DNA of 64,000 bases, taken from Lewinella sp. LCG006. GTDB taxonomy: Bacteria > Bacteroidota > Bacteroidia > Chitinophagales > Saprospiraceae. Positions 51,364 through 54,268 of the stretch are shown one piece after another. The stretch's first letter is position 1. The number at the start of each line of letters is the position of its first letter. A program made the position numbers and the translations under genes. Where the stretch lies: NCBI RefSeq assembly GCF_040784935.1, contig NZ_CP160680.1, forward strand, positions 5,747,802-5,811,801, read 5' to 3'. The notes beneath the pieces were generated by a model that saw only the letters and a list, made by a program, of their open reading frames with translations, was not told where the DNA came from and made no database searches.

Positions 51364-51669
51364 CTATCCACGGCCGTAGTACATGAGAATAGCACCAAAC
51401 ATAGTGATCAGTACCAAGAGAACAGTGGCCATTTTGATGGAGTACCTTAAATGATTGGCGAAAGTCTGGATTTCGTCGGTCAGGAGAGGGTATTTTGGAA
51501 GGATTTCGTCTTTCATCTTCTGATTGCTGAAAACATGACTGGCCCCAAACTCTACTCGATTTTGTACCAATACTTTATAAGATTTCATCACCTTGACCCT
51601 GAAGTAAATGTTGATGAAAAGCATGGCTACAAAAAGTCCGATAACCACGGAGATTAATACAATGTACAT
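51364..51669 (-). CDS. Small two-helix membrane protein
   Basis: 101 residues: helix 1 at about 2-24 and helix 2 at about 77-98, with a soluble loop (NRVEFGASHVFSNQKMKDEI) between. No family recognised. Its own -7 box lies ten bases upstream, directly after a strong intrinsic terminator for the repeat array, so it seems insulated from the RNA made there. Confidence 0.65.
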   Translation of the reverse strand: MYIVLISVVIGLFVAMLFINIYFRVKVMKSYKVLVQNRVEFGASHVFSNQKMKDEILPKYPLLTDEIQTFANHLRYSIKMATVLLVLITMFGAILMYYGRG

Positions 51670-51679
51670 TGTTTTTCGA

Positions 51680-51687
51680 CAAAGGTA
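51680..51687 (-). promoter_or_regulatory. -7 box (TACCTTTG) of the small membrane protein
   Basis: TACCTTTG on the minus strand fits TAnnTTTG; ten bases then the ATG at 51669. The upstream T9 tract of the terminator is only seven bases away. Confidence 0.55.
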
Positions 51688-51694
51688 ATTGAAT

Positions 51695-51724
51695 AAAAAA
51701 AAAGAGGAGCTGTTGTAGCTCCTC
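51695..51724 (-). terminator. Strong intrinsic terminator ending the 88-bp repeat array
   Basis: On the minus strand GAGGAGC-TACAACA-GCTCCTC is followed at once by nine T residues (51703-51695). A textbook terminator for RNA coming through the repeat array from the right. Confidence 0.8.
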
Positions 51725-51944
51725 CTAAAAACACCTAAAACCCATATTCATATCATGAAAACCTTCTAGCTCGTGAGATGGGTAAAAGGGAGGAGCAAAA
51801 AAATGCTCCTCCTAAAAACACCTAAAACCCATATTCAATTCTTAAATATCTTGGAAGCGTTCATGAGAGGGTGGTGAAAAGGGAGGAGATATACTCCTCC
51901 TGAAAACACCTAAAACCCATATTCATATCATGAAAACCTTCTAG
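51704..51944 (-). ncRNA. Candidate tandem small-RNA array: three ~88-bp hairpin repeats
   Basis: Three direct copies, conserved words beginning at 51719, 51806 and 51894 (period 87 and 88). Each has a GGAGGAG/CTCCTCC hairpin whose loop differs (7, 8 and 5 bases) and then, on plus, CTAAAAACACCTAAAACCCA and ATATTCA. Copies 1 and 3 continue identically to ATGAAAACCTTCTAG; copy 2 diverges after ATATTCA. Read on minus, each copy ends in the hairpin followed by T-rich sequence (T9, CTTTT, CTTTT), like three small RNAs with their own terminators. Compensated loops and constant stems suggest selection on structure. The rest of the gap, 51945-52220, shows no gene. Not matched to a known RNA family by eye. 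Confidence 0.5.
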
Positions 51945-52220
51945 TCATTGTGCATAGTGTGCATCCTTTGATGCGCTATTGTGAAACGAAAATGTTTCGC
52001 TGTTGTTCGATATGTAGACGCCTTATGTACAAAAGGTCACTACAAAGACTAAAGGTCCGCTAAATTTTAACATTTTTTAACAAAGAGCGGTCAAAAAGCT
52101 GTTAATCAGTTTCTTCTGCGGGTGAATTTTTATTTGGTAATCGAAGTTTCACGCCAATTTAAAATACACGTAATACGCTCTTTAAAAATTTTTACTTTTT
52201 TCCTAAAAAAATAAAATTTG

Positions 52221-52811
52221 ATGGAAATTTTTGATGACTTACCTGCGATTTGGGATTTTTTCTGGCAGCAATTGCAAAAAGCACCTCACCAAAAAAAGCA
52301 TCCTTGGCGCACTCCGGTGCTAGCAAGTCTAGACGGAGATCAGGTAAATCAACGCACAGTAGTTTTGCGTAGGGTAGGTCAGAAAGAACGGTACCTACGG
52401 TTTTATACAGACTTTCGGTCAGCAAAAATAAGGCAAAAAGGTGAAAAACTACATTTTAGCTGGCTTTTTTACAATTCGTCTAAACAAATCCAATTGCGCA
52501 TAAAAACAGAGGGAGCAGTAGTCATTACAGAGGAATTAGAAAAAATATGGCAGGGTTTACCGGTTTATGCTCGCTCGACTTATGCGGCTACCTTGCCGCC
52601 TGGCACAGCAATAACTTATCCGAGTGATGGTTTACCTGATGGATTTTTCAATCAGTCTACTCCCGAAACAGATATATTTCGCGAGAATTTTGCGGCAGTA
52701 GATAACTTTATCACCGAAATCGAATTCCTCCAACTCCATCGAGAGGGGCACCGGCGCGGTCGATGGAGTTGGGAAGAAAACGAATGGAAAGGAACTTGGT
52801 TAATTCCTTGA
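52221..52811 (+). CDS. Pyridoxamine 5'-phosphate oxidase-like flavoprotein
   Basis: 196 residues from the ATG at 52221 (the codon before is TTG and not needed). The split-barrel FMN-binding pattern is seen: TPVLASLDGDQVNQRTVVLRRV, then FYTDFRSAKIRQ, LHFSWLFYNSSKQIQLRI and the C-terminal HREGHRRGRWSW. This is the plant/cyanobacterial-type branch of the family rather than E. coli PdxH; it may oxidise pyridoxamine phosphate or act on another flavin substrate. Lies 276 bases right of the repeat array, on the other strand. Confidence 0.82.
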   Translation: MEIFDDLPAIWDFFWQQLQKAPHQKKHPWRTPVLASLDGDQVNQRTVVLRRVGQKERYLRFYTDFRSAKIRQKGEKLHFSWLFYNSSKQIQLRIKTEGAVVITEELEKIWQGLPVYARSTYAATLPPGTAITYPSDGLPDGFFNQSTPETDIFRENFAAVDNFITEIEFLQLHREGHRRGRWSWEENEWKGTWLIP

Positions 52812-52812
52812 T

Positions 52813-53958
52813 TTACTGTTGAGAAGCCTTTAACTTGATCGGAACCATGACCTCACGATCATCCCTTTTGACGCGAACATTGACTTGATCACCGGCTTTG
52901 TATTTTTCCAGTGCCAAGTAAAGATCGCTGTTGGTGGTAATGGGGTCGTCGTTTACGGCAATAATGATATCGCCGAGGATAATGTTACCATTGTTATCTG
53001 CCTTGGTACCCAAAAGGCCCGCAGTTTCTGCTGGACTGTCTTTGACTACATTGAGCACTACTGCTCCTGTAATATTGCGTAAGGGGCGGGTCAATTCTAC
53101 ACCAATGAGAGGGCGATTGAGTTCTCCATACTGAATGAGGTCAGGCACTACCCAGTTGACTACATCAACGGGGATAGAAAATCCAATGCCTGCTGAAGCA
53201 CCCGATGGGCTGTAAATGGCGGTATTGACACCAATCAGTTCTCCTGATGAATTCAGCAGAGGCCCCCCAGAGTTGCCCGGGTTGATGGCCGCATCCGATT
53301 GGATAACATCTCTGATGGGAATGCCCGCAACAGATTTAATTTCTCTACCCAAAGCACTGACTACGCCCGTCGTCAGGGTTTGATCCAAACCAAAAGGATT
53401 ACCAATCGCGTAGACATTTTGCCCTACACGTAAATTGATGGAACTGCCAACGGGAATAGGCGTAAGCTCGTTGGAAGGGATATTTATTTTTAATACCGCC
53501 AGGTCTTTTTCGGGTGCTTCCCCAACTTTGCTGGCTTGGTACGTTTTTCCATTACTGAGGGTTACCGTGGCTTTATCCGCATTTTGAATGACGTGGTAAT
53601 TGGTAACGATATGACCTTCCTTGTCCCAGACAAAACCAGAGCCGGAACCACTAGGGATTTCTTCAACATTACGGCTATAATAGTTGCGTCGTAGCGTAGA
53701 CGTCGTGATAAAGCAGACAGAGGGTGCTGCTTGTTCAAATAAACGAATGGTGTGCTGCTCCTGGGGAGTCATGCCCAAAGGAACCGATGATGAAGCAGGA
53801 GCAAAGGTAGCATCATCGTTGGGAGGCGTATTTTCGTTACGAACCAACAAGGCATTTTTATCTTCTACCGGGCTGGTCTCCGCCATTTGTTGCTTCATCA
53901 ATAGCATGCCACCAAAAAAGCTTACTACTGCTAATAAAATCCAGAGTAATACACGCAT
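52813..53958 (-). CDS. HtrA/DegP-type serine protease with one PDZ domain
   Basis: 381 residues from the ATG at 53958, which places an uncleaved anchor helix (MRVLLWILLAVVSFFGG) at the N-terminus. The triad is His in HIVTNYHVI, Asp in EKDLAVLKI and Ser in INPGNSGGPLLN; a single PDZ domain covers about 275-375 (RPLIGVELTRPL, KAGDQVNVRVKRDDREV). Periplasmic quality-control protease. The frame is open to 54120 but that stretch is repeat DNA and adds a low-complexity Arg/Ser/Asn-rich tail. The stop is one base beyond the PNPOx-like gene's stop: tail to tail. Confidence 0.93.
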   Translation of the reverse strand: MRVLLWILLAVVSFFGGMLLMKQQMAETSPVEDKNALLVRNENTPPNDDATFAPASSSVPLGMTPQEQHTIRLFEQAAPSVCFITTSTLRRNYYSRNVEEIPSGSGSGFVWDKEGHIVTNYHVIQNADKATVTLSNGKTYQASKVGEAPEKDLAVLKINIPSNELTPIPVGSSINLRVGQNVYAIGNPFGLDQTLTTGVVSALGREIKSVAGIPIRDVIQSDAAINPGNSGGPLLNSSGELIGVNTAIYSPSGASAGIGFSIPVDVVNWVVPDLIQYGELNRPLIGVELTRPLRNITGAVVLNVVKDSPAETAGLLGTKADNNGNIILGDIIIAVNDDPITTNSDLYLALEKYKAGDQVNVRVKRDDREVMVPIKLKASQQ

Positions 53959-54268
53959 GGTAATATTTGTTTTTGATGATATAATAGTGTTCGTCCCTAT
54001 GTCTCGGGCCTCACGGGAGTGCTTATCCCGATATTCGGGATTCGCGTTTTGTGCTCGGTTCCCTCGCGAATTTGTTCGTCCCGATGCTCGGGACTCACGT
54101 TTTGTGCTCGCTACGCTCACGGTGGTACTTTAACGTTATCCAATTAATTCATTCCTAAAGCACTAACAAAAACCGCGAGCACCTCCGAGAATCCCGAGCA
54201 TCGGGATGAACATCCCCGCGATTCCAAGCAATCGGAAGCGCACAACCGTGAGTTGTCAGCGAACACCC
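53959..54268. repeat. 310-bp gap with direct and inverted CCCGAT/TCGGG repeats
   Basis: Two 31-bp direct copies, 54027-54057 and 54080-54110 (period 53, four mismatches): CCCGATATTCGGGATTCGCG and CCCGATGCTCGGGACTCACG, each then TTTTGTGCTCG. An inverted copy of CCCGATGCTCGGG is at 54192-54204 (CCCGAGCATCGGG). Each unit is itself palindromic. No gene; the htrA promoter must lie at the left end. Confidence 0.6.

Follow-up and report, generated by a model that had tools for sequence, protein, structure and literature searches.

Candidate tandem small RNAs behind an ECF-like promoter motif in Lewinella and related Saprospiraceae

Introduction

The chromosome of Lewinella sp. LCG006 carries three hairpin-bearing direct repeats in tandem, which raises the question of whether such a locus encodes small RNAs and, if so, what might drive them and on which partners they might act. 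The repeats lie in the stretch of 64,000 nucleotides that was analysed here and is called the window. Base-pairing small RNAs (sRNAs) induced by stress are best understood in Proteobacteria that possess Hfq. In Gammaproteobacteria, the envelope-stress sigma factor drives the sigma-E sRNAs RybB, MicA and VrrA alongside genes of the degP/htrA type, while RNAs of the CsrB type bind and titrate an RNA-binding protein. In the open-licence library that was searched, no paper on small RNAs of the Saprospiraceae or on the family described here was found.

Results

The three direct-repeat copies are situated at 51719-51769, 51806-51856 and 51894-51944 with a spacing of 87 and 88, the period given in an initial annotation of this DNA, and the 19-mer CACCTAAAACCCATATTCA is common to all of them letter for letter, as also stated there. 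Read on the minus strand, every copy leads into a hairpin (-12.5, -17.9 and -15.1 kcal/mol) with a stem of the GGAGGAG/CTCCTCC type and a differing loop, and then into a T-tract, which comprises four T in units 1 and 2 and nine T in the last unit; constant stems, variable loops and a final T9 had been described correctly. The annotated span of 51704-51944 covers the repeats, but the promoter and the T9 tract are outside of it (Table 1). In general, three parts make up a unit: the 5' box, which reads UUUUCAUGAUAUGA or varies from it, the core AUAUGGGUUUUAGGUGUUU, which is almost invariant, and a Rho-independent terminator, the stem sequence of which drifts freely between units. Units of this kind are called class A, and in blastn searches the own genome has a single class A place. 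Judged from the sequence, there is a strong case that the triplicate is best read as a minus-strand small-RNA locus, and we infer its transcription start at approximately 52008-52012.

Table 1. Positions of the array and its neighbouring features in the window
Feature	Position	Strand	Basis or remark
Putative ECF-sigma-like promoter GTGAC-N15-CGTC, serving the whole array	52017..52040	-	motif position and statistics over class A loci
Leader from promoter to unit 1, possible small hairpins by eye	51940..52010	-	not conserved in relatives
Unit 1: 5' box TTTTCATGATATGA; core ATATGGGTTTTAGGTGTTT 51904-51922; hairpin 51882-51900; T4 51877-51880	51875..51938	-	
Unit 2: divergent 5' box TTTAAGAATTGA; same core 51816-51834; hairpin 51789-51812; T4 51784-51787	51782..51850	-	
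Unit 3: 5' box TTTTCATGATATGA; core 51729-51747; hairpin 51702-51726; T9 terminator 51695-51703	51695..51763	-	
HtrA/DegP-like serine protease (Trypsin_2 + PDZ), syntenic upstream gene	52813..54120	-	domain match
Pyridox_oxase_2 gene between htrA and array, bystander	52218..52811	+	domain match
Downstream 101-aa gene	51364..51669	-	no Pfam match
-7 box TACCTTTG of the 101-aa gene, separate promoter	51680..51687	-	same box in same-genus relative L020

A blastn search with the array gave matches in 13 of 60 related genomes, the own genome included, and the recovered units, with few exceptions, have the core AATATGGGTTTTAGGTGTTT in common but not the stem after it. When the genome collection was scanned for exact copies of the 19-nt core ATATGGGTTTYAGGTGTTT, 75 stretches were returned, mostly labelled Saprospiraceae, Lewinella, Neolewinella, Phaeodactylibacter or Flavilitoribacter, the others being Chitinophagales or unplaced Bacteroidetes bins. 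Behind 97 of the 102 exact cores the sequence folds with -8 kcal/mol or better, and a crude T-run test was passed in addition by 91. The five cores lacking the fold come from a contig end (L046), from bins labelled Lokiarchaeota, Peptococcaceae and Minwuia, and from a bin of Saprospiraceae (L086); L082, which carries the label Proteobacteria, passes with -8.0 kcal/mol, yet no terminator was seen in it by inspection. Core invariance is partly built into such a scan, and a few variant units were found beside exact ones. A sequence-only model that tolerates changes (R1) matched 98 of 398 genomes of the own family at E <= 0.01, a count including weak hits and the sibling class B described below.

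The final set, distinct by sequence, holds 75 class A and 30 class B loci, which do not equal 105 species, since some genomes contribute several loci and some loci come from close relatives. Before the promoter-motif, unit, stem and neighbour counts, L060, L077, L082, L089, L114, L120, L122, L123, the contig-end L046 and L086, the Saprospiraceae bin with an exact core but without a hairpin, were removed by hand; L227-L233, L240 and L252 were also left out of the unit and stem, locus-level promoter and neighbour counts. Class A loci contain one (57 loci), two (8), three (7), four (2) or six units (1), so that the copy-number variation for which a search in relatives had been suggested is present. 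The 15-nt core GGGTTTTAGGTGTTT is intact in 135 of 138 units, many of which came from the exact scan. Its recurrence at 74 other class A loci with different self-complementary stems shows that the repeat is more than chance.

The same 138 units have 104 distinct 5' stem arms. A fold of -8 kcal/mol or better in the 42 nt that follow the core was required for a unit to be kept, hence the stem statistics describe units already selected for having a hairpin, and the hairpin z-scores were computed with single-letter shuffles. Within this selection the stems differ but pair. The idea of the initial annotation that the repeated CCUCC/GGAGG could contact ribosomes finds no support, as unrelated sequences occupy the same stem position in relatives. 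Because the stem sequences are unrelated, only their pairing is kept, as in a terminator, and the GGAGGAG/CTCCTCC stem is simply the terminator of Lewinella sp. LCG006.

A pooled model (R2) was run under strict filters on genome samples that cover part of the order and part of the class. In the order sample it matched 51 of 298 genomes, 48 belonging to the own family; in the class sample it matched 10 of 395, 3 belonging to the own family. Scoring of four of the seven outsiders in the class sample showed no hairpin (-1.4 to -4.5 kcal/mol); the other three were assessed by inspection. The one inspected among three order-level outsiders, L252, folds at -11.3 kcal/mol without a T-run, at the start of an apparent coding sequence. 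As far as sampled, the family looks confined to the taxonomic family of the window. The array has no Rfam match at gathering scores and no significant match, only weak ones such as L20_leader (RF00558; 51690-51820, minus strand), which reached 28 bits where 58.7 are needed (E 0.0015), probably due to a terminator plus a U-rich stretch.

The 5' box TTTTCATGA occurs in at least one unit of 48 of the 74 scored class A loci, namely in all 18 multi-unit loci, 16 of which have it in the last unit, and in 30 of the 56 single-unit loci that were scored; unit 2 of the window lacks it. In short-spaced arrays (<=100 nt), internal units carry T3-T5 in nine of nine cases and the last unit T6-T9, and the weak internal T-runs are read as leakiness within a putative polycistronic precursor. 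The core is partly closed in predicted folds, with a mean unpaired value of 0.57 and values above 0.7 in 20% of the units. Two further arrangements were observed: Flavilitoribacter nigricans has six class A units at intervals of approximately 147 nt and a separate ECF motif for every one of them (L047:5879-6636), and Neolewinella aurantiaca has three separate class A places (L040, L055, L056).

Upstream of class A, the motif GTKAC-N15/16-CGTC was found within 300 nt in 46 of 73 loci, as opposed to a single locus on the opposite strand and none downstream, where the full stretch was present for 70 of the 73; it is absent within 300 nt in 27 loci. In a unit-wise search that allowed spacings of 15-19, the strict GTGAC/CGTC pair spaced by 15-16 stood within 180 nt upstream of 33 of 105 class A units and once on the other strand, against a mean of 0.075 and a maximum of 2 in 200 rounds of dinucleotide shuffling. 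The distance from motif to core varies between 39 and 266 nt. The window holds a single GTGAC-N15/16-CGTC (52040, minus strand). Among class A sites the consensus extends to CGTC-NNAA; the window site reads CA in place of AA and is hence not in the list obtained with this stricter motif. GTGACN15-16CGTCNNAA has 12 sites each in the own genome and in L. cohaerens, a modest excess over 8 and 8 for reversed-pattern controls. Ten sites pair up between both genomes with the same flanking genes, and the genes behind stricter-motif sites include those for M48 and M90 peptidases, DUF1573 and LysM proteins, a HATPase_c_2 protein with YbeY, and small secreted proteins. A housekeeping TAnnTTTG promoter was rejected as general driver of class A, being present at 14 of 105 units versus a shuffle mean of 11.4. 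The GTGAC/CGTC motif has the shape of an ECF sigma promoter, and in Flavobacterium psychrophilum an ECF-type regulon is reported to have a CGT -10 box (PMC9723704). Taken from sequence, the case for ECF control of class A appears good.

The 2 kb upstream of class A hold an HtrA-type gene in the same orientation in 25 of 75 loci, and none lies on the opposite strand or downstream; 25 is a lower bound, because 2 kb of upstream sequence was present for 47 loci, and 50 loci show no htrA within this distance. The 101-aa gene adjoins the array directly only in L016, L019 and L020 among 12 relatives compared, all of the same genus, and is therefore set outside the system. Its own -7 box, as claimed earlier, was found and recurs in L020. 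Since the downstream genes differ among the 13 class A loci compared, the array is not a leader. The proposal of a tandem small-RNA array on the minus strand thus gains support from 105 sequence-distinct loci, the invariant core, the drifting terminator, 1-6 units per locus, the excess of upstream promoter motifs and the variable downstream genes, all of them features of sequence.

Weak hits of R1 exposed class B, in which TTAATAGGGTTTTAGGTGTTTATT is followed by a terminator. Its signature is AUAGGGUUUUAGGUGUUUAUU, and each of the 30 loci has one unit, among them one in the own genome (G000:C1:2981652-2981678); three same-genus genomes also carry class B, detected by the core complement. In 11 of the 30 loci an Hsp20-like gene, one of which was checked (PF00011), ends 21-367 nt upstream on the same strand. 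The ECF-like GTKAC-N15/16-CGTC motif precedes none of the 30 loci. No htrA was found within 2 kb of class B, nor an Hsp20 gene within 2 kb of class A. Upstream of class B in three genomes of the genus Lewinella (L100/L113, L253, L254), a TAnnTTTG box is directly followed by the palindrome GAACNNGTTC, a possible operator.

Complements of the core occur 33, 30, 38 and 30 times in four genomes, those of the array included, versus 49, 24, 39 and 22 for reversed patterns, i.e. without excess genome-wide. Complements of the 5' box show a slight excess (22, 25, 29 and 11 versus 16, 19, 18 and 7), which the commonness of ATGAAAA starts could explain. Many of the other inspected matches lie inside genes or away from starts. 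Selected by complementarity, the following targets are only candidates, and the shuffles do not represent an independent test of them. In L164 (G000:89733) the leader of a secreted protein pairs collinearly with box and core at -37.1 kcal/mol, the best of 200 shuffled targets reaching -27.1. The other candidates exceed the best of 200 shuffles by 0.4-1.9 kcal/mol: L179 and its L. cohaerens counterpart L178 have a site 6-22 nt before the ATG (-29.8 and -30.5; best shuffles -28.7 and -29.6), L165 gives -29.2 (-28.8), and L148 of a same-genus genome pairs over the start codon of a gene whose protein weakly resembles CotH (-28.3; -26.4). Among 120 genomes of the family, 9 were found to contain a relative of the L179 gene, the own one included, with a clear site in the own copy alone and several start codons unlocated; one relative, L193, has an imperfect look-alike site.

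Discussion

Unit anatomy, conservation, promoter motif and neighbouring genes can be read directly from the sequences, and on these grounds class A and class B appear as a sequence-conserved sRNA family, without significant Rfam match and probably of the paralogous, base-pairing kind. New are the ECF/HtrA and Hsp20 settings, the tandem build with leaky terminators and the lineage-wide core. For the window, we somewhat favour a tandem array of three trans-acting class A genes whose Hfq-independent, envelope-stress-induced sRNAs would repress mRNAs of secreted proteins by pairing in two parts. An ECF sigma factor would start transcription at the GTGAC-N15-CGTC promoter; the weak T4 terminators after units 1 and 2 would let some polymerase pass and T9 would end the transcript, so that RNAs of one, two and three units might result, possibly with processing at the hairpins. 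The U-rich 5' box of units 1 and 3 is antisense to the start-codon context AUAUCAUGAAAACC, and the 15-19 nt core GGGUUUUAGGUGUUU is antisense to AAACACCUAAAACCC in mRNA leaders. As we infer for targets and direction of effect, box and core may pair with the translation-initiation regions of mRNAs for secreted or surface proteins and block translation. Export load would thereby be lightened under envelope stress, in parallel to the neighbouring HtrA protease, and class B, often beside Hsp20 genes, could feed cytoplasmic heat stress into the same core. Several results weigh against this reading, namely the lacking genome-wide excess of core complements, the narrow margins of most candidate targets over shuffles, the partly closed core in predicted folds, and the class A loci that have no ECF motif within 300 nt (27 of 73) or no htrA within 2 kb (50 of 75).

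The tandem, G/U-rich core might instead act as a decoy that titrates an RNA-binding protein, for example an RRM protein, rather than pairing with mRNAs. Such a role would fit the tandem repetition up to six units, the lack of a genome-wide excess of core complements, and the 15-nt core that stays intact while its surroundings drift, a count favoured by the exact scan; moreover, at least one RRM protein and no Hfq match were found in each of the four genomes searched, the own one included. However, decoys need many sites, whereas 57 of 75 class A loci and all class B loci have a single unit, and the 5' box resembles the pairing seed of FopS, which makes titration unlikely, though worth keeping in mind.

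Pairing with mRNAs also has to be weighed against readings in which the locus acts at ribosomes, in cis, or not at all. The AGGUG of the core could pair over 5 nt with CACCU of the 16S rRNA 3' end, but conservation reaches well beyond AGGUG and the GGAGG of the stem is not kept in relatives; an action at 16S rRNA through either element is hardly credible. An SD/anti-SD function was rejected, as the stems differ in relatives. It is very unlikely that the array acts in cis on the 101-aa gene, be it as a transcription attenuator, a leader or a leader-peptide switch (ATG GGT TTT AGG TGT TT): the last terminator does lie approximately 26 nt upstream of the ATG of this gene and the core is readable as a short ORF, but the gene has its own -7 box, also in L020, different genes follow the array in the 13 loci compared, the unit frames share no common stop, and the third codon positions are as invariant as the rest, except for one T to C. 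A short conserved peptide was likewise discarded due to the invariant wobble positions. Tandem duplication and copy-number change would also be expected of a REP-like element, a mobile element or a chance duplication without RNA function. This is the least credible reading, given the single class A place in the own genome, the upstream gene that recurs at one third of the loci, and terminator stems that remain paired despite their sequence changes.

For the preferred base-pairing mode, FopS of Bacteroides (RF04319) is the closest comparison. It is likewise a short multicopy sRNA of Bacteroidota with an unpaired 5' part and a Rho-independent terminator, and it shares the 5' seed UUUUCAUGRUAU with the array. 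Unit 3 is covered in full by the alignment to the FopS model, with UUUUCAUGAUAU opposite the seed GUGUUUUUCAUgGUAU near the 5' end, but at 15.5 bits against a gathering score of 56 (E 7.6 and 1.4) the array does not belong to that family; the downstream half GAUUUAAGGUUAAUAAAAGAU is missing, and the class A core stands in its place. FopS is reported to be induced by bile salts, to bind start-codon regions, to repress susC translation and to be countered by RbpB, and its 14 members are reported to have canonical housekeeping promoters (PMC11697453), unlike the tandem array with its ECF-like promoter. The box common to both is antisense to AUAUCAUGAAAA, which makes it plausible that FopS and the array work in a similar manner, whether through descent or through convergence. 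As with RybB, MicA and VrrA, an envelope-stress sigma factor would drive sRNAs next to a gene of the htrA type, but the array shows no sequence relation to them (no Rfam match); it also differs in its promoter motif and tandem units, and the Hfq dependence of the RybB/MicA type has no counterpart in four genomes without an Hfq match. The Rfp sRNAs of F. psychrophilum, from another lineage of Bacteroidota and likened here by description and not by sequence, are reported as longer (median 176 bp), and at least one of them, Rfp11, has a promoter with an ECF-type CGT box (PMC9723704). Sibling sRNAs, i.e. several related sRNAs in one genome, have been described in tandem (PMC4211561). Compared with these in general, the weak internal terminators of the array suggest one polycistronic precursor, and the second class located elsewhere shares only the core.

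If the proposal is true, the same regulatory logic would have been built from different parts in environmental Bacteroidota in which Hfq was not found, and the type strains of Lewinella and Neolewinella would offer a culturable system in which to ask how sRNAs reach their targets without Hfq and why the 15-nt core does not change by a single letter. A wider, tentative and in our view rather doubtful picture is a proteostasis RNA system of the Saprospiraceae with two branches. Class A, built in tandem and with a start-codon seed like that of FopS fused to a new core, would form the ECF/HtrA envelope branch, and class B the Hsp20-linked heat branch; through the same invariant 15-nt seed, and independently of Hfq, both would shut down export-bound mRNAs, and the ECF regulon would drive two larger CCCA-repeat RNAs, one possibly sponging the core. 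One such stretch (L137:1480-1800, G000:C1:2857414; L144 in L. cohaerens) shows an ECF-type promoter and then approximately 230 nt of conserved non-coding sequence with repeated ATCCCA motifs and a strong terminator-like hairpin. It is likely a second ECF-driven RNA. Complementarity between its 5' AAACACC and the GGUGUUU in the array core, which may be fortuitous, would allow the two to pair. The other (L147:1240-1560, minus strand, G000:C1:4210668; L128 in L. cohaerens) likewise has an ECF-type promoter, followed by a conserved non-coding stretch of approximately 210 nt with CCCA motifs and a hairpin GAAGGGAGCTG..CAGCTCCCTTC.
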